Assembly: GCF_947648125.1 (NCBI RefSeq)
Contig: NZ_CANSMR010000032.1
Coordinates: 1-64,000, forward strand
Direction: 5' to 3'
From: an uncultured Bradyrhizobium sp.
GTDB taxonomy: Bacteria > Pseudomonadota > Alphaproteobacteria > Rhizobiales > Xanthobacteraceae
DNA: 64,000 nucleotides
A model generated the notes under the pieces. That model worked only from the letters and a program-made list of their open reading frames with translations, ran no database searches and was not told the DNA's origin. The translations under genes were made by a program, and so were the position numbers. This document shows, piece by piece, positions 16,500-43,961 of this stretch. Each line of letters begins with the position of its first letter. Within the stretch, counting starts at the first letter, position 1.

Positions 16500-17567
16500 C
16501 TATTCCGCGCTCGCCACCAGCTTGAAGCGGGGCTTGGCCTCCATCAGGCTGCGATAGGCGGCGAGATAGTCGAGCGCCATGCGGCGCGCGGTGAAGCGGG
16601 TTTCGAACTGCTTGCGGATCGCATCGCGATTGAGCGTCGAAAGGCGGCCGACGGACGCGACCGCGCTGATCTCGTCCTCGACGATGAAGCCGGTCAGGCC
16701 GTCCTCGATGATCTCCGGCACCGAACCGCGGTTATACGCAATGACGGGCGTGCCGCAGGCCATCGCTTCGATCATCACGAGGCCGAACGGCTCCGGCCAA
16801 TCGATTGGAACCAACAGCCCGATCGCGCCGCTGAGAAAATCCGGCTTCTCGCGGTCGCTGATCTCGCCGATGAACTCGACCAGCGGATTGCTGGTGATCA
16901 GCGGCTTGATCAACTCGTCGTAATATTCCTGGTCGGCGCGATCGACCTTGGCTGCGATCTTCAGCGGAATGCCGCAGCGGGTTGCGATCTTGATCGCGCG
17001 ATCGACGCCCTTCTCCGGCGCGATGCGCCCGAGCACGGCGAGATAGGATTGTTTGGCCGGTTGCGGCGTCAGCAGATTCTCCGGCAGGCCGTGATGGATG
17101 GTGCGCACCCAGTGCGCCTGCGGCACCGGCCGCCGCTGCGCGTTGGAGATCGAGATCACCGGGACCTTGGAGAAGGTGTTGAAGACGGGCTGGTGCTCCG
17201 GCAGGTCGAGCCGTCCGTGAAGCGTGGTCACGAACGGCGTCGGCTGCCGCGCGAACAGCGACCACGGATAATAGTCGAGGTGACAGTGCAGGAAGTCGAA
17301 CTCGTCGTCGTCGGCCTTCTGCCGGACGCGCTCCAGCATCACCATGTGCAGCGCATTGGGGTCGCGGACGGAACCGTCGAGCCGCAGTGCCTTCGGCCAG
17401 GTCGCATCGAGCTTCGCGGAGGTCTGTGAATCGCCACTGGCGAACAACGTCACGTCATGTCCAAGTGTTACAAGTTCTTCGGTCAGCCAGTGCACGACCC
17501 GTTCGGTGCCGCCGTAGAGCTTGGGGGGAACAGCCTCCGTCAGCGGGGCAACCTGCGCGATGCGCAT
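16500..17567 (-). CDS. Glycosyltransferase family 4 protein
   Basis: Nucleotide-sugar-dependent transferase with the GT-B fold, 355 aa from ATG 17567 (Shine-Dalgarno GGAGA). N-terminal domain: PLYGGTERV-type glycine motif (KLYGGTERVVHWLTEEL). C-terminal domain: GRIAPEKGVDRAI and the EX7E region EPFGLVMIEAMACGTPVIAY, which binds the nucleotide sugar. Related proteins add sugars to exopolysaccharide or lipid acceptors. It is divergent from an ABC exporter and lies near a debranching-type hydrolase, which fits a glycan role. Acceptor and donor are unknown. Confidence 0.88.
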   Translation of the reverse strand: MRIAQVAPLTEAVPPKLYGGTERVVHWLTEELVTLGHDVTLFASGDSQTSAKLDATWPKALRLDGSVRDPNALHMVMLERVRQKADDDEFDFLHCHLDYYPWSLFARQPTPFVTTLHGRLDLPEHQPVFNTFSKVPVISISNAQRRPVPQAHWVRTIHHGLPENLLTPQPAKQSYLAVLGRIAPEKGVDRAIKIATRCGIPLKIAAKVDRADQEYYDELIKPLITSNPLVEFIGEISDREKPDFLSGAIGLLVPIDWPEPFGLVMIEAMACGTPVIAYNRGSVPEIIEDGLTGFIVEDEISAVASVGRLSTLNRDAIRKQFETRFTARRMALDYLAAYRSLMEAKPRFKLVASAE

Positions 17568-17636
17568 TTCTCCGTCTCCATGTTTGTAATGTGGATGAAC
17601 CCTCAGCCCTCTGATGGCAGCGACATGCCAAAGACG

Positions 17637-17663
17637 GGAACGTTCTCGCACGTGCGAGGTTCC
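17637..17663. promoter_or_regulatory. Palindrome in the glycosyltransferase/exporter divergent region
   Basis: The 14-bp perfect palindrome CTCGCACGTGCGAG (17645-17658) is flanked by GGAAC (17637-17641) and GTTCC (17659-17663), an outer inverted repeat displaced by 3 bp. It lies 70 bp upstream of the glycosyltransferase ATG and about 215 bp from the exporter start. The rest of the 297-bp divergent region shows no gene. A dimeric regulator binding here could control both directions. Confidence 0.5.
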
Positions 17664-37678: not shown

Positions 37679-38926
37679 TCACGGCAGCAGCGTTGCGTCG
37701 CCGTCGAACGGGCCGGCGTACCAGGCGCTCTCGTCTTCGAGGGCGCGAGCCAGGCCTTCGTCCGTCGTCTTGTAGACGAGCGGATCGGTCGGGTAAGTCC
37801 TGACGTAGGGATTCCATCTCATCAGGACCTGTCGGATATGTCCGGGCACGCCGACCAGCTCGAAGAGATGATCGCCCGAAGCGACCGCGTTCGCATAGGC
37901 CGCTTCGAGCAGCGCCTCGGTCACGTCTGAGTCATCCTGCTCCACCAGGATGTCGGCGAGCATCGACCGTCGCAAACCTGTCTCGCGGTCGACCGCATGC
38001 AGCACGACAGCATACCCCGCCAAGCGCTGGAATCGATGGCAGCAGAGCACGGCAACCGTCGAAGAGCTCCCAGGGAGCGTGAAGTGCCACCTGAGGGAGG
38101 CGGGACTTCGGTCGGCCAGCAACCGAGGGGCCTCGCCCAATTTGCGTCGCCACAGCGCTTCGAATTCGTCCCCGATGTCCTTCACATCGATTTCCGTTAC
38201 TTTGCCGGTCAGACGGCCCCGTGGTCCGCGGCGGAGCGAATCCAAACGCATGGCCGACGAGGCTAGGAAAGCTCCGACAGATTCCATTCCGCTCCCGACG
38301 TCGAACTTCGCTGCGAGCACCCGCGCGAACTGATGGACATCCAGGATCCAGAACAGGATCTTGTCGTAGTCGGGGTCAGGCAACGACCTCGCATGAAGGG
38401 CTTTTGATTGATTGACCACCGATGCTGTCGAGTGCGTGATGACAAGGAGATCGACATCTCGCTGCCGAAAGAACGAAGCCAGCAGGCCGATGCAGCGCGT
38501 GCGGTACGCCGGTTCGATCACCAAGCCAGCGGCTGTCGCGGCGAATATCGTTCGGCCTTCGAGCTGGTAGAGCACGGGAATATTTCCCTGGTACCCGACA
38601 ATCCCATGCTCGGTCTCCAAGACCCACCCCATGCTGGGCCGCGATTTGGCGGCGGACATCGCGGGATTTTGTCGCCAGAGCCGATCCCAGTTCTCCGGGC
38701 TGTCTTTCGCAAGGCCCCCGCGTTCCTTCAGCCTCGCGACGCTTTCGAAATCCGCGAACCGGACCTCCCGCTGCTTCGCCGGCGCCAACGCGCTTCCGGA
38801 GAGCGTTGCCGCTTCGGCTTGAGCGGACGCAGGACGGCGCCGGCTTTTCAGGAGTCGGAGCAGGATATCGGCGGCGTGATACTTGGAGCGTGTCTGAATT
38901 TGCGCCGGCGCGCGGGTCTCCGCCAT
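37679..38926 (-). CDS. GNAT-like protein of the biosynthetic island
   Basis: 415 aa from ATG 38926 (11 bp after the carrier-protein stop). I recognise no strong motif. The arrangement of a central segment with VLYQLEGRTIFAATAAGLVIEPAYR and LLASFFRQRDVDLLV resembles the beta4-alpha3 core of GNAT N-acyltransferases, and the C-terminal half may be a second GNAT-like lobe (RFQRLAGYAVVLHAV ... SMLADILVEQDDSDVTEALLE). Last gene of a tight operon with a monooxygenase, an adenylation enzyme and a carrier protein. It could transfer the carrier-bound acyl group to an amine, but this role is inferred only from context. A FemAB-like fold is an alternative. Confidence 0.65.
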   Translation of the reverse strand: MAETRAPAQIQTRSKYHAADILLRLLKSRRRPASAQAEAATLSGSALAPAKQREVRFADFESVARLKERGGLAKDSPENWDRLWRQNPAMSAAKSRPSMGWVLETEHGIVGYQGNIPVLYQLEGRTIFAATAAGLVIEPAYRTRCIGLLASFFRQRDVDLLVITHSTASVVNQSKALHARSLPDPDYDKILFWILDVHQFARVLAAKFDVGSGMESVGAFLASSAMRLDSLRRGPRGRLTGKVTEIDVKDIGDEFEALWRRKLGEAPRLLADRSPASLRWHFTLPGSSSTVAVLCCHRFQRLAGYAVVLHAVDRETGLRRSMLADILVEQDDSDVTEALLEAAYANAVASGDHLFELVGVPGHIRQVLMRWNPYVRTYPTDPLVYKTTDEGLARALEDESAWYAGPFDGDATLLP

Positions 38927-38937
38927 CAATCCCCTCC

Positions 38938-39255
38938 CTAGCCGAATGGCGGCGACGACCCGGTGGCCCCATCTCGCCACCGAGGCTGCGTCAATTGCTC
39001 GGACACGAACAGGCACAGGGGACCGATCAGCGTCATCTGTTCTGGATCGAGGTTCTCGAAATCGATCTCCCTGTCGAAGTGCTCGCCCGCCGCCATCATC
39101 ATCTCGACGAAGGCGAGCGAATCGAGCGCCCCCGACAGCAGCAGGTCGTAATCATCGGGGAGATCGCGCAGCGGACGCTGCCCGCGGTCTTGGAGCTTCT
39201 GGTTGAGGAAGGCTCCGAAGAACGCGCGGACGTCATCCGTGGTCGGACCGCTCAT
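38938..39255 (-). CDS. Acyl/peptidyl carrier protein
   Basis: 105 aa. The phosphopantetheine site is GALDSLAFVEMM with Ser46 in a DSL motif. The rest fits the four-helix fold of a stand-alone carrier (DYDLLLSGALDSLAF, then EIDFENLDPEQM). It carries the substrate activated by the adjacent adenylation enzyme as a thioester. Its ATG overlaps the adenylation gene stop by 4 bp (ATGA), so both proteins are made together. No phosphopantetheinyl transferase is in the window. The longer frame upstream is a shadow of the adenylation gene. Confidence 0.88.
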   Translation of the reverse strand: MSGPTTDDVRAFFGAFLNQKLQDRGQRPLRDLPDDYDLLLSGALDSLAFVEMMMAAGEHFDREIDFENLDPEQMTLIGPLCLFVSEQLTQPRWRDGATGSSPPFG

Positions 39256-40859
39256 GGGCTGTCTCCCAAGACCGCCGGCATGGCCTCGCGGTCGTATTTT
39301 CCGTTGGCGTTGCGCGGCAGCCGGCTGCGAACGTGCCATCGTCTCGGGACCATGTAGTCCGGCAGCCGGGCGGCGACCGCCGCGCGAAGCCGGTCGAGAT
39401 CGACCGGCCTGCCTTCGATGAGCACTTCGATGCCGCCGTAGCCGCTCGACGTGATGGGCCAGCCGATCGCCACGACGCCGTCGATGCCCGAGGCCTCGCG
39501 CACCACGGCTTCGACCTCTCCGAGCTCCACCCTGTGGCCGAGGATCTTCACCTGCGAGTCCATGCGGCCGAGATGGGTCAGGGGACCATCGCCGGCGGGC
39601 CGGCGCACGCGGTCGCCGGTGCGGTAGAACATCTCCCGCCGTCCGGGCGGGACGACGAAGGCTGCGGCGGTCTTCTCGGGATCTTTCCAGTAGCCGAGCG
39701 ACATCTGCGGACCGCTCATCAGCAGTTCGCCCTCCGCGCCCGGCCCGACCTCGTTCAGCTGCCCGTCGACGACGAGGACGCTCATTCCCGGGAACGGCGC
39801 GCCGATCGGCACGATGCCCATCTCCGCTTCGGCCGGCGTCCGCTTCGGATCCCACCGGTAGCCGGTGCACGCGATGGTCAGCTCGGTCGGTCCGTAGATG
39901 TTCTCGACGACGCTGTTCGGCGCGGCCATCGCCCAGGCCTCGACGCAGCTGACGGGCAGCGGCTCGCCGCAGAACAGGCTCAGCCTGAGCGAGGGAAACC
40001 CTCCCGGCTTCAGCAGGCCGGACTGCTTCATCAGCGCGACCATCGAGGGCACCGAGAACCAGACCGTCAATCCCTGCTCGCGGATGAACCGCCCCGGATT
40101 GATCAGCGCCTTCTGCGAGGGGCAGTACACGCAGGCGCCGCGTTCCCACGCCACGAACATGTCGGATGCCGACAGGTCGAACGTCATGTCGAACGTCTGC
40201 GAGACGACGTCTAGCTCCGTGATGGCGAAGCGATCCGCGGCATGGTCGACATAGGCTGCGACGTTGCGGTGTGCGACCATCACCCCTTTCGGAACCCCGG
40301 TGCTGCCGGAGGTGAACAGCAGATAGGCGATCGCGTCCGTGCGCGCGTCCGGCTCGCGCCAGTCGGCGTATCCTTCGAGATCGGCAGCTCCGACGATGAT
40401 GTGCAAGGGCCATCGTCCGCGATAGGGGCCCGGGTCCTCGAGACAGGGCGCGATCACGAGCAGCGGTTCGTCCACGCCCGCCATGAGCGCGCCCATTTGC
40501 GGCAAGGATTCCGCGTCGACGATGATCGATCGGCACTCCGAACGGACGAGCATCGACCTGGTGCGCTCGACCGGGAAGGTGCGGTTCAGCGGCACGTAGC
40601 CGTTTCCGGCCAGAAGCGATCCGAGCACGCCGGCGAAGGCCGTCGCGCTGCGATGCGCGAACACGCCGGTCAGCGGCATCGACGCCCCTTCACGATGCGC
40701 CTGGATGCAGGCTGCGATGCGGACCGCGGCGTCGCGAAGCTGCCGATACGACAGCGACGTACCCTGCGCGACGACAGCAGGACGGCCGGGAAACAATTTC
40801 GCCGAGCGCAGGAAGCCCGTCCACAATCCCCGCCGTGATCCGTCCGCGCGCAACTCCAT
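39252..40859 (-). CDS. Stand-alone adenylation (AMP-binding) enzyme
   Basis: Acid:carrier-protein ligase of the ANL superfamily, 535 aa. Motifs in order: A3 LLFTSGSTGVPKGVM (about 180-194), A4 SQTFDMTFDLSASDMF (220-235), A5 NIYGPTELTIACTGY, A7 FYRTGDRVRR, and A10 PRNANGKYDREAM with the catalytic lysine near residue 518. It resembles DltA-like and stand-alone NRPS A domains that load an amino acid onto a separate carrier. The A4 aspartates would allow an alpha-amino acid, but the substrate cannot be read by eye with confidence. Starts 16 bp after the flavin monooxygenase gene. Confidence 0.88.
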   Translation of the reverse strand: MELRADGSRRGLWTGFLRSAKLFPGRPAVVAQGTSLSYRQLRDAAVRIAACIQAHREGASMPLTGVFAHRSATAFAGVLGSLLAGNGYVPLNRTFPVERTRSMLVRSECRSIIVDAESLPQMGALMAGVDEPLLVIAPCLEDPGPYRGRWPLHIIVGAADLEGYADWREPDARTDAIAYLLFTSGSTGVPKGVMVAHRNVAAYVDHAADRFAITELDVVSQTFDMTFDLSASDMFVAWERGACVYCPSQKALINPGRFIREQGLTVWFSVPSMVALMKQSGLLKPGGFPSLRLSLFCGEPLPVSCVEAWAMAAPNSVVENIYGPTELTIACTGYRWDPKRTPAEAEMGIVPIGAPFPGMSVLVVDGQLNEVGPGAEGELLMSGPQMSLGYWKDPEKTAAAFVVPPGRREMFYRTGDRVRRPAGDGPLTHLGRMDSQVKILGHRVELGEVEAVVREASGIDGVVAIGWPITSSGYGGIEVLIEGRPVDLDRLRAAVAARLPDYMVPRRWHVRSRLPRNANGKYDREAMPAVLGDSP

Positions 40860-40875
40860 CGAACGATCGCCTAGA

Positions 40876-41943
40876 CTAGCCTGCGAGGCCCTGACGCGCC
40901 GGATCGCGAAGCGCTGATGACTTCAGACGCCGGGCCTTCGTCAGCGCCTGTCCGAAGACCTCGCCCGTATGGACCAGTTCCTCGCGGGTGGGTGGAATGT
41001 CCAGGATGAACGTCCCGTAGCCGGCCGCGGCGTAGCGCGCGAGTTCGTCGGAGACGACCCCGTAGTCGCCGACCAAATACGGGCAGAAGGTCTTGTAGTT
41101 TTCGAATGGCACCAGCCAATAGGGTGTCTCCTCGGTGGCCGTCTCGGCTGCGAGATCTGACATCTGCTTGTGCCACGCCGAATCCGAGACCTTCATGGCC
41201 AGCTTGTGCGCCAGCTGCCCCTTCTTGTCGGTCGGGAAGCGTTCGTGCGCGACCCGCCAGGCCTCCTCGGCGTTCGCGCGGGCGATGATGCCGACGCGCA
41301 CACCCGACCCGACGCAGTCGGCGTCGGCCTGCCCGTACTCTGCGGCCGGCTTGGGATACTTCACCGGTGTTGCGCCCAGCGCCTTGGCGGCAGCGAGCCC
41401 CGCTTCCGAGGAGCCAGACACGAATACGCCGGGCAGCAACTCCTGCGGCAGCGGTGGCGTCATCCTCAGATTCCGCACGGCATGGAATTCCCCTTCGAGC
41501 GTCACCGGCTCGGCGTTCTCCAGCAGCAGCTTGATGATGGCGGTGTATTCGACGAGCCTCGCGTACCGCTTGTCGTGCGCCGTCGCGTCGCCGAGCGCCG
41601 CAAGCTCGGTCGTGTAGCCACCCGCGACCATGTTCAAATAGAGCCGGCGTCCGTACATATGCGCAAACGAGCTCACCATCTTGGCGACGCTGTACGGATG
41701 CATGTAGACCGGCTGCACTGCCACCAGCGGACAGAGTTCCGTGGTGCTCTGCAGGATCACCTGCGAGACGAGCCAGGGATCGACCAGGGAGTTTTCCGTA
41801 TAGACCAGGATTCCCTTGCAGCCCGCCTCTTCGCTCCAGCGGGCGACGGCCTTCACCCGTTCGACATAGTCCGCCGCCTGCACCGCGCCGGATTGCGGGC
41901 ACGTGCTGAAAACGTCGAACCGAATGTCGGAAAACGTATCCAT
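40876..41943 (-). CDS. Luciferase-like (LLM) flavin-dependent monooxygenase
   Basis: FMNH2-dependent oxygenase of the bacterial luciferase/SsuD superfamily, 355 aa from ATG 41943; the neighbouring ATG 41946 sits too close to the GGAGG. Motifs: GCKGILVYTENSLVDPWLVSQ (barrel start), RRLYLNMVAGGYTTELAALG, RYARLVEYTAIIKLLL, and LPGVFVSGSSEAGLAAAKALG. First gene of the operon with the adenylation, carrier and GNAT-like genes. Relatives of this family hydroxylate substrates held on carrier proteins or free acids and sulfonates. No flavin reductase is present nearby. Confidence 0.88.
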   Translation of the reverse strand: MDTFSDIRFDVFSTCPQSGAVQAADYVERVKAVARWSEEAGCKGILVYTENSLVDPWLVSQVILQSTTELCPLVAVQPVYMHPYSVAKMVSSFAHMYGRRLYLNMVAGGYTTELAALGDATAHDKRYARLVEYTAIIKLLLENAEPVTLEGEFHAVRNLRMTPPLPQELLPGVFVSGSSEAGLAAAKALGATPVKYPKPAAEYGQADADCVGSGVRVGIIARANAEEAWRVAHERFPTDKKGQLAHKLAMKVSDSAWHKQMSDLAAETATEETPYWLVPFENYKTFCPYLVGDYGVVSDELARYAAAGYGTFILDIPPTREELVHTGEVFGQALTKARRLKSSALRDPARQGLAG

Positions 41944-42194
41944 CATCCACCTCCATCCAAAAGGCGTCGAAACGCCATGGCTGGTGGAGAACCGGGTCAT
42001 GGTAGCAGATGCGTTCGTGAGCTCCCCCGACGCAAAGGTGGTACTCCGTCAAGCGATGGGAACGGATGCCCGGCCGACTATTCAGGGGCGGCGCACTGCA
42101 CTTTTGCGGAGCTTGATTTCCGCCGCCTCTCTGCAACGATGCCGCGGCACCTGCTCGATTTTCGCTTGGGCGCGATCCGTCCAGGGGGTGTTGA
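41944..42194. other. Divergent promoter region of the biosynthetic island
   Basis: 251 bp between the monooxygenase and carbamoyltransferase start codons. No gene, no clear palindrome and no sigma-54 signature. It should carry both promoters, so the island is probably co-regulated. Confidence 0.45.
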
Positions 42195-43961
42195 ATGGCG
42201 AAAGTAATCGGCATCAGTGGATTCGAGAGCTCGATCCCCTTCAAGAGGAAGCACTGGCCGGGCCTGGAGGAGCGCGAATATCGGATCTCACAAGGCCACG
42301 ATTCCGCTGCGGTGCTGGTGGTCGACGGCAGGATCGTCGCCGGTGCCGCCGAAGAGCGCTTCAACCGCAAGAAGCACACCGGTGATTTCCCGATCGGCGC
42401 CATTAGCTACTGCCTGGAGACCGCTGGCCTGAAGCCATCCGACATCGACGTGATCTCTCACGGCTTCGACTATGCGCCCTACAAGGCAGCCTTCATGCTG
42501 GATCCGACCTCCGCCCGACAATACAGGGAGGTGTTCTCGCGCGAAAAACTGCTCGCGCAAGTCGATCAGCACCTGCCCGGATTTCCAGCCAGCAAGGTCC
42601 ACCACGTCAACCATCATCTGTCCCACGCCGCCAGCGCCTACTACACCTCCGGTTGGGACGAATGCCTGGTGGTGATCCTCGACGGCATGGGCGAAGTCCA
42701 AGCCGTCACCGTCTATCACGCGCACGACAACGCGATCGACAAGCTCGCGGAAATCACCGCCCAGGATTCGATCGGCATCCTCTATTCCACGCTGACGCTG
42801 CATCTCGGCTTCGATTTCAACTCCGACGAATACAAGATCATGGGCCTCGCGCCCTACGGCGATCCCGCCCGCCGCCGTGCTTTCTTCGAACGGACTGTGG
42901 AGCTGCGCGACGACGGCCTGATCAGGATTCCTCTGCTCCGCCTCAATATCGAGCGCCAGGATCGCGAAACCTACGGCGCGACGCGACGCCATCTCGGCGA
43001 GCATCTGATCCCGGCTCGCGCGCCCGACGGCGACGTCACCGACGACCATCGCGACGTCGCCGCAGCGCTGCAGGAATGCCTCGACAGCGTCATGCTCCAC
43101 ATCTGCGGCCATTTCGGCCGCAGCACCGGCCTGCGCAGGCTCGCGATGGCGGGCGGCGTCGCGCTCAACTGCACCGCCAACGGCCGCCTGCTGCAGTCCG
43201 GCCTGTTCGACGAGATCTACGTTCAGCCGGCTGCAGGCGACGATGGCTCCGCGCTCGGCGCCGCGCTCTGGTCGGCATCGCGCGACAGTGGCGTGAAGAA
43301 CGTCCGGATGCCGGTCCCCTTCCTCGGCCCCGCACCCACGCAAACCGAGATTTACAGGGCGCTGGCCGACACCGCCGGCCGCATCGAGATCACGCGCTTT
43401 GCTGATCTCGACGAGACCTGCGCGGTGGCGGCGAGACTGATCGCGGCCGGACGCGTGCTCGGCTGGTACCGCGGACGCATGGAGTTCGGTCCTCGCGCGC
43501 TCGGGCACCGGAGCATCCTGGCCGATCCCGGACATCCGGAGATGCGCGACCGCATCAACGCGATGGTCAAGATGCGCGAAGCCTTCCGCCCGTTTGCGCC
43601 GGCGGTCAGCCTCGAGCAGGTGCATGACTGGTTCGAGGTGCCGGAGGGGCTCGAGCTTCCCTACATGATCATGACCGCCGACGTGCGCCCGGAGCATCGC
43701 TCCGCGCTGCCGGCGATCACGCATGTCAACGGCTCGGCCCGCGTGCAGACGGTCAGCGTCAGGGACAATCCGGAATTCCACGCACTGCTGCGGGCGGTCG
43801 GCCGGGCGACCGGCCGCGAAATGGTGCTGAACACGAGCTTCAACGTGAAGGGGCAGCCGATCGTCAACACCCCGCGCGAAGCCATCGACACCTTCCTCGG
43901 CACCGGCATCGAGTATCTCTTCCTCGAGAACGTGCTCGTCCGCCGCGTGGGACAGACGTAG
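42195..43961 (+). CDS. Carbamoyltransferase, NodU/TobZ family
   Basis: 588 aa enzyme that O-carbamoylates a hydroxyl using carbamoyl phosphate and ATP. N-terminal Kae1/HSP70-like ATPase domain with GISGFESS, QGHDSAAVLVVDG, the metal ligands in HHVNHHLSHAASAYY, DGMGE, and GGVALNCTANGRL; C-terminal domain with YRGRMEFGPRALGHRSILADP and LNTSFNVKGQPIVNTP. All expected motifs are intact. In rhizobia NodU modifies Nod factors, but no nod genes are near; here it more likely acts on the product of the divergent adenylation/carrier operon. Confidence 0.92.
   Translation: MAKVIGISGFESSIPFKRKHWPGLEEREYRISQGHDSAAVLVVDGRIVAGAAEERFNRKKHTGDFPIGAISYCLETAGLKPSDIDVISHGFDYAPYKAAFMLDPTSARQYREVFSREKLLAQVDQHLPGFPASKVHHVNHHLSHAASAYYTSGWDECLVVILDGMGEVQAVTVYHAHDNAIDKLAEITAQDSIGILYSTLTLHLGFDFNSDEYKIMGLAPYGDPARRRAFFERTVELRDDGLIRIPLLRLNIERQDRETYGATRRHLGEHLIPARAPDGDVTDDHRDVAAALQECLDSVMLHICGHFGRSTGLRRLAMAGGVALNCTANGRLLQSGLFDEIYVQPAAGDDGSALGAALWSASRDSGVKNVRMPVPFLGPAPTQTEIYRALADTAGRIEITRFADLDETCAVAARLIAAGRVLGWYRGRMEFGPRALGHRSILADPGHPEMRDRINAMVKMREAFRPFAPAVSLEQVHDWFEVPEGLELPYMIMTADVRPEHRSALPAITHVNGSARVQTVSVRDNPEFHALLRAVGRATGREMVLNTSFNVKGQPIVNTPREAIDTFLGTGIEYLFLENVLVRRVGQT

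Follow-up and report, generated by a model that had tools for sequence, protein, structure and literature searches.

The five-gene island and its conservation

The DNA analysed here, referred to as the window, is the initial 64 kb of a contig of 83.65 kb from the 8.57-Mb genome of an uncultured Bradyrhizobium sp., and this report concerns a compact island of five genes within it. Four of these form an operon on the minus strand, encoding in order of transcription a 355-residue luciferase-like, SsuD-like flavin-dependent monooxygenase (LLM; 40876..41943), a 535-residue stand-alone adenylation (A) domain of the nonribosomal peptide synthetase (NRPS) type (39252..40859), a 105-residue carrier protein (CP; 38938..39255) and a 415-residue protein ending in DGDATLLP (37679..38926). 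The last, termed here the fourth protein or transferase, is a putative double-GNAT acyltransferase with a predicted fold like that of N-myristoyltransferase (NMT) and Eis. A gap of 16 bp separates the LLM and A genes, the A and CP genes overlap by 4 bp, and the transferase gene starts with an ATG at 38926, 11 bp beyond CP. Divergent from the operon, a plus-strand gene (42195..43961) encodes a 588-residue O-carbamoyltransferase (CT) of the NovN/GdmN/TobZ kind. The coordinates, strands and gene spacing given for the island in an earlier note, made from the window's sequence, were all reproduced. That note also reported no condensation domain, thioesterase, polyketide synthase (PKS) or nod gene in the window, and none was seen among the 19 window proteins scanned against Pfam or among the others, which were judged visually on the basis of a rough gene list. 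No polysaccharide locus was seen around the island within the window, one glycosyltransferase noted there (16500-17651) lying 20 kb away. The intergenic region between the LLM and CT genes (41944..42194) holds a 24-bp block (42030-42053) that is identical across all 10 aligned islands and is a possible operator or promoter; a simple pattern search of the region found neither nod-box nor sigma-54 patterns.

The fourth protein has matches in nine of 146 genomes of the genus, eight of them strong (61-100% identity, the window's own genome included) and one at 27%, and a close-relative pattern scan of an 84,980-genome collection returned eight loci, all in Bradyrhizobium. Conservation was assessed in 12 distinct genomes, every one found by searching with the fourth protein. 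The five genes are syntenic in 11 of the 12 (own included), with alcohol and isocitrate-type dehydrogenase genes as constant neighbours, and ratios of non-synonymous to synonymous divergence from the window (dN/dS) range from 0.065 to 0.33. Given this synteny and the low dN/dS, the five-gene grouping is not due to chance, and the outcome that the earlier note had named as fatal to its proposal, a neighbourhood conserved in no other genome, is contradicted. One of the 11, B. tropiciagri (L060), has frame breaks in A, in CT and in the adjoining dehydrogenase; since this neighbouring gene is broken too, in a draft sequence, sequencing error is the likely cause, and the A and CT rows of this genome are partly out of frame, so that their dN/dS is unreliable. 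In the twelfth, Bradyrhizobium sp. AUGA SZCCT0283 (G023), the order is A, CP, formyltransferase, transferase and LLM, with the carbamoyltransferase on a separate 4-kb contig; the formyltransferase between CP and transferase has ArnA as its top-scoring model, far under that model's cut-off. Seventeen island-free loci of the genus were fetched around the isocitrate-type dehydrogenase: the downstream XRE gene lies within 1.5 kb in four, which represent the empty site, a piece of an LDT gene stands there instead in two, and neither XRE nor LDT occurs in the short flank of the remaining 11. An intact CT orthologue (>85%) was found in five of 60 genus genomes (own included), always with the transferase, and as a fragment in one more (G028), where the region encodes a PF13480 GNAT and a protein resembling polysaccharide lyases, together with glycosyltransferase and type I secretion genes recognised by eye.

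Carrier-linked enzymes and carbamoyltransferase

Profile scores bear out the families that the earlier note assigned to LLM, A and CT; its carrier assignment is upheld by the serine motif and not by the Pfam cut-off. The A domain scores 226.3 bits against AMP-binding (Pfam) and 328.9 bits against the amino-acid adenylation model TIGR01733, above the cut-off of 317.4. All 12 orthologues keep the FDxS aspartate, which we take to be the residue that binds the alpha-amino group, and because it is kept the substrate is likely to be an alpha-amino acid. Pocket letters, placed by motif, are identical in the 12 orthologues except at '239', where one has F and the other 11 have S, and at '322', which may be I, L or V; we know of no specificity that matches D-L-S-F-L-C-I-I-A as read in this way. 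The carrier reaches 17.1 bits against PP-binding (PF00550), under the cut-off of 20.8, and its phosphopantetheine serine, in the DSL motif of SGALDSLAF, is conserved in 12 of 12 orthologues.

The LLM matches Bac_luciferase (PF00296) with 109.7 bits against a cut-off of 27.9; alkanesulfonate monooxygenase models are its nearest by score, yet far under their cut-offs (SsuD equivalog of NCBIfam, 109.8 against 518.2 bits). Searching 398 genomes of the phylum at E <= 1e-40 gave LLM matches in eight, own included, the best other being G295 (49%) and the rest 36-37% identical; plasmid records, searched separately, gave seven. A-domain matches occur in all six chromosomal neighbourhoods fetched for the seven relatives, and AMP-binding or NRPS genes lie near the LLM gene in all five plasmid loci opened (Tritonibacter, Rhizobium, Gemmobacter and two Streptomyces; matches H2 and H4 fall outside this set). 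Two loci of the analysis, in G802 and G092, were seen out to 1.5-kb flanks. The G295 locus has three AMP-binding enzymes with P450, acyl-CoA dehydrogenase and phosphopantetheinyl transferase (PPTase) genes, and that of G557 (L092) has a PPTase and a 2153-residue two-module NRPS with two condensation, two A and two CP domains. This company of A-domain and NRPS genes, on chromosomes and plasmids alike, is good evidence from gene context that the oxygenase has its place in carrier-bound chemistry.

Several of the LLM loci are of interest for their content. In other Bradyrhizobium genomes (L091, L092, L093 and L094) an LLM relative with 35-37% identity has A-domain genes close by. Four alphaproteobacterial clusters (L133, L134, L137 and L089) combine AMP-binding enzymes, an LLM and a PPTase, with P450 in three, acyl-CoA dehydrogenase in three and an annotated carrier in two. 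On Streptomyces linear plasmids (L135, L136) there is a cluster of NRPS, MbtH, HppD, LLM and halogenase genes with two free condensation-domain genes.

The CT is complete, with both its N-terminal domain (PF02543, 196.6 bits) and its C-terminal domain (PF16861, 227.2 bits) above the Pfam cut-offs. Against the PDB it scores 407 bits with NovN, 387 with GdmN and 282 with TobZ, and the alignment to NovN covers residues 35-584, motifs included; the intact motifs claimed for it do line up with those of solved members.

The fourth protein and its relatives

No Pfam or NCBIfam family, the NMT sequence family included, matches the fourth protein at E <= 0.01, a PDB profile search with its orthologues gave a best E of 1.6, and plasmids yielded no match. 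Its assignment relies on an AlphaFold model built from 27 diverse rows (pLDDT 80), a model from orthologues only (pLDDT 43) having been set aside. The model is of the myristoyltransferase/Eis double-GNAT type, with the double-GNAT fold predicted over the whole chain and fold likeness spanning residues 47-411. Its alignment to human NMT1, at about 10% identity, runs to the last NMT1 residue, 496, and it is where this alignment ends, at the C-terminus, that the family has conserved carboxylates (DGD). The GNAT-like label of the earlier note thus finds support in the predicted model and in weak relatives, and none in family models.

The transferase differs from its neighbours in two islands, G004 and G139, where it is 61-62% identical to that of the window and 89% identical between the two, the LLM, A, CP and CT proteins being 87-96% identical to those of the window. 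Synonymous divergence of G004 from the window is 0.13-0.28 in these four genes and 0.89 in the transferase, and in both islands a methyltransferase gene, 88% identical between them, follows the transferase (L049:11882-12856, L050:7146-8273). Since a divergent allele and an extra methyltransferase occur whilst the other four genes stay close, the transferase was swapped, probably with a tailoring methyltransferase gene, inside an otherwise stable operon, an exchange that we infer to reflect a change of acceptor or of final tailoring.

Eighteen neighbourhoods of distant relatives were inspected. In G256 an operon near flhA (L104:9944-14173) encodes a GNAT relative, an A domain, a CP and a KamA-like 2,3-aminomutase, the last two under their family cut-offs, and is possibly a beta-amino acid transfer system. 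FkbH, polysaccharide deacetylase and MaoC-SDR genes lie near the relative in G195; in G821 (L132) the relative stands with FkbH, a weak acyl carrier protein (ACP), MaoC-SDR, a PIG-L deacetylase, methyltransferases, an asparagine synthase and a NodU-type carbamoyltransferase (37% identical); in G211 it is near a ketoacyl synthase and a glycosyltransferase. Single polypeptides that fuse AMP-binding, PP-binding and GNAT domains occur in G023, near the island (L047:8849-12073, 1074 residues), and in G790 (L121:548-3853, 1101 residues). With 13 AMP-binding genes in 4.1 Mb (G256), 29 in 5.6 Mb (G790) and 54 in 5.0 Mb (G734), one would fall within 2 kb by chance at roughly 1-4% of loci, as against four of the 18 observed, these four not being independent since two share one genome.

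Proposed pathway, alternatives and known systems

We judge it an even call that the island is a cassette for loading, oxidising, transferring and carbamoylating an acyl group. In such a pathway the A domain would activate an alpha-amino acid with ATP and load it onto the phosphopantetheine arm of the carrier, and the LLM, using reduced flavin supplied in trans, would oxidise the carrier-bound aminoacyl group, most simply by hydroxylation. The double-GNAT enzyme would then detach this group from the carrier and join it to an amine, forming an amide without a condensation domain, with the DGD carboxylates lying approximately where NMT has its C-terminal carboxylate base. The CT may carbamoylate a hydroxyl, either the LLM-derived one or a hydroxyl of the acceptor, and the order of this step is left free; the acceptor could be an amino sugar in a glycan or in an aminoglycoside-like molecule whose genes lie elsewhere. 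Family membership and genomic company point to the first two steps and to the type of the last, the predicted fold and some relatives to the transfer.

More tentatively, and with rather less than even confidence, we suggest that the island represents an undescribed amide-forming step, in which an acyltransferase of NMT/Eis fold picks up an aminoacyl or hydroxyacyl unit on an NRPS-type carrier and joins it to an amine with no condensation domain. The step would occur in Proteobacteria in three arrangements, namely separate genes, an operon of A, CP, GNAT and aminomutase genes, and fused A-CP-GNAT proteins, and the transferase would be a final component open to exchange, swapped along with a tailoring gene in some Bradyrhizobium. 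Several observations weigh against the proposed cassette. A common fold is no proof of function, the donors of NMT and Eis are coenzyme A (CoA) thioesters, and the Foldseek TM score is about 0.5; GD is present within the last eight residues in just 14 of the 27 aligned rows, eight of these being orthologues. Carrier-thioester genes were seen in just seven of the 18 distant-relative neighbourhoods, and none in the other 11, where most genes were judged by eye and some contigs are short. The orthologue-only profile A1 misses the fusion proteins at E <= 0.001, and as they are reached by profile A2 alone, over the first GNAT domain, their likeness is possibly generic GNAT similarity. The likely preference for an alpha-amino acid depends on pocket positions assigned by motif, the natural-product LLM subfamily TIGR04020 is not among the 13 NCBIfam families that match the LLM at E <= 0.01, and no glycosyltransferase, deacetylase, flavin reductase or PPTase gene was found beside the island of the window. 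If the suggestion is correct, cultured bacteria would offer a minimal, testable five-gene system in which a myristoyltransferase-like enzyme carries out carrier-to-amine transfer, an amide route missed by genome-mining rules built on condensation domains. The island would also point to a new product of Bradyrhizobium, a carbamoylated metabolite or surface decoration independent of Nod factor.

The earlier note had proposed that a small carbamoylated hydroxy or amino acid is released free, which would make the GNAT-like protein an accessory or release helper. Loading, oxidation and carbamoylation fit the families and their conserved grouping; release is not supported, and we regard the free acid as an unlikely product. 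The absence of visible glycan genes beside the island and the natural-product-type clusters of LLM relatives favour it, as does the proposal of the palmerolide authors that an LLM hydroxyl and a carbamate are placed on neighbouring carbons (PMC8739492); no thioesterase was seen, however, and because the fourth protein models with an acyl-to-amine transferase fold and some of its distant relatives lie with carrier and polysaccharide-type genes, we favour transfer to an amine acceptor. It is similarly improbable that the fourth protein is an Eis-like, acetyl-CoA-dependent N-acetyltransferase, serving self-protection or capping and leaving the carrier-bound group alone, since its gene directly follows that of the carrier in the window and both an A-CP-GNAT operon (G256) and A-CP-GNAT fusions exist.

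Decoration of Nod factor, with the CT acting as NodU, is far less probable still. The combination of an acyl carrier with NodA and NodU follows a logic resembling that of the island, the hosts belong to a rhizobial genus and nodA was detected in five of eight island genomes; it was not detected in the other three, the window's own included, by a search that finds it in 14 of 20 genomes of the genus. The CT scores 150.3 bits against the NodU equivalog (NCBIfam), where the cut-off is 1000, and as the own genome yielded no nodA and the promoter region no nod-box pattern, a NodU or Nod factor role was rejected, the island not tracking nodA. Nor does the CT consistently accompany nod or polysaccharide genes, the other outcome that the earlier note had named as damaging: one genome, G028, has a CT fragment near genes of the latter type. 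Accidental neighbourhood or decay, which the scarcity of the island in the genus, the broken B. tropiciagri genes and the G028 fragment might suggest, was dismissed as least probable of all, given the synteny, the purifying selection and the probable sequencing errors.

Each enzyme type of the island is already known and comparable logic exists; a search of titles and opening abstract lines, with most subscription journals outside its scope, found no description of this gene set or of a carrier-linked double-GNAT step. The CT resembles NovN, GdmN and TobZ in both domains and in its motifs, and differs in its length (588 against about 680 residues for NovN and GdmN) and in its place beside an A-CP-LLM-transferase operon. 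The transferase is like NMT and Eis in predicted fold and C-terminal carboxylates, and unlike them in matching no family model and in its suspected carrier, rather than CoA, donor. The tetronate-perosamine pathway of Vibrio cholerae O1 carries an acid on an ACP to an amino sugar; clusters such as those of G195 and G821 similarly combine FkbH or an ACP with a deacetylase and a GNAT relative, whereas in Bradyrhizobium an A domain and LLM replace FkbH and no sugar genes were seen beside the island. In butirosin biosynthesis, the amino acyl precursor of the 4-amino-2-hydroxybutyrate (AHBA) side chain is held on the BtrI carrier, hydroxylated and then transferred to an aminoglycoside amine; a different ligase does the loading there, and butirosin carries no carbamate. 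The palmerolide PKS-NRPS (PMC8739492) combines an LLM and a carbamoyltransferase in one pathway as the island does, but is a modular PKS system whose LLM matches TIGR04020, unlike that of the island. For butirosin, PMC2922099 describes BtrO as an LLM-superfamily monooxygenase and BtrH as an acyltransferase with a papain-like fold; the proposed island pathway would share with it a carrier-bound aminoacyl group, an oxygenase of the same superfamily and transfer to an amine, whereas the island transferase is modelled as a double GNAT, unlike the papain-like BtrH. Of the known systems, the butirosin side chain comes nearest in its logic, achieved with a different transferase fold.

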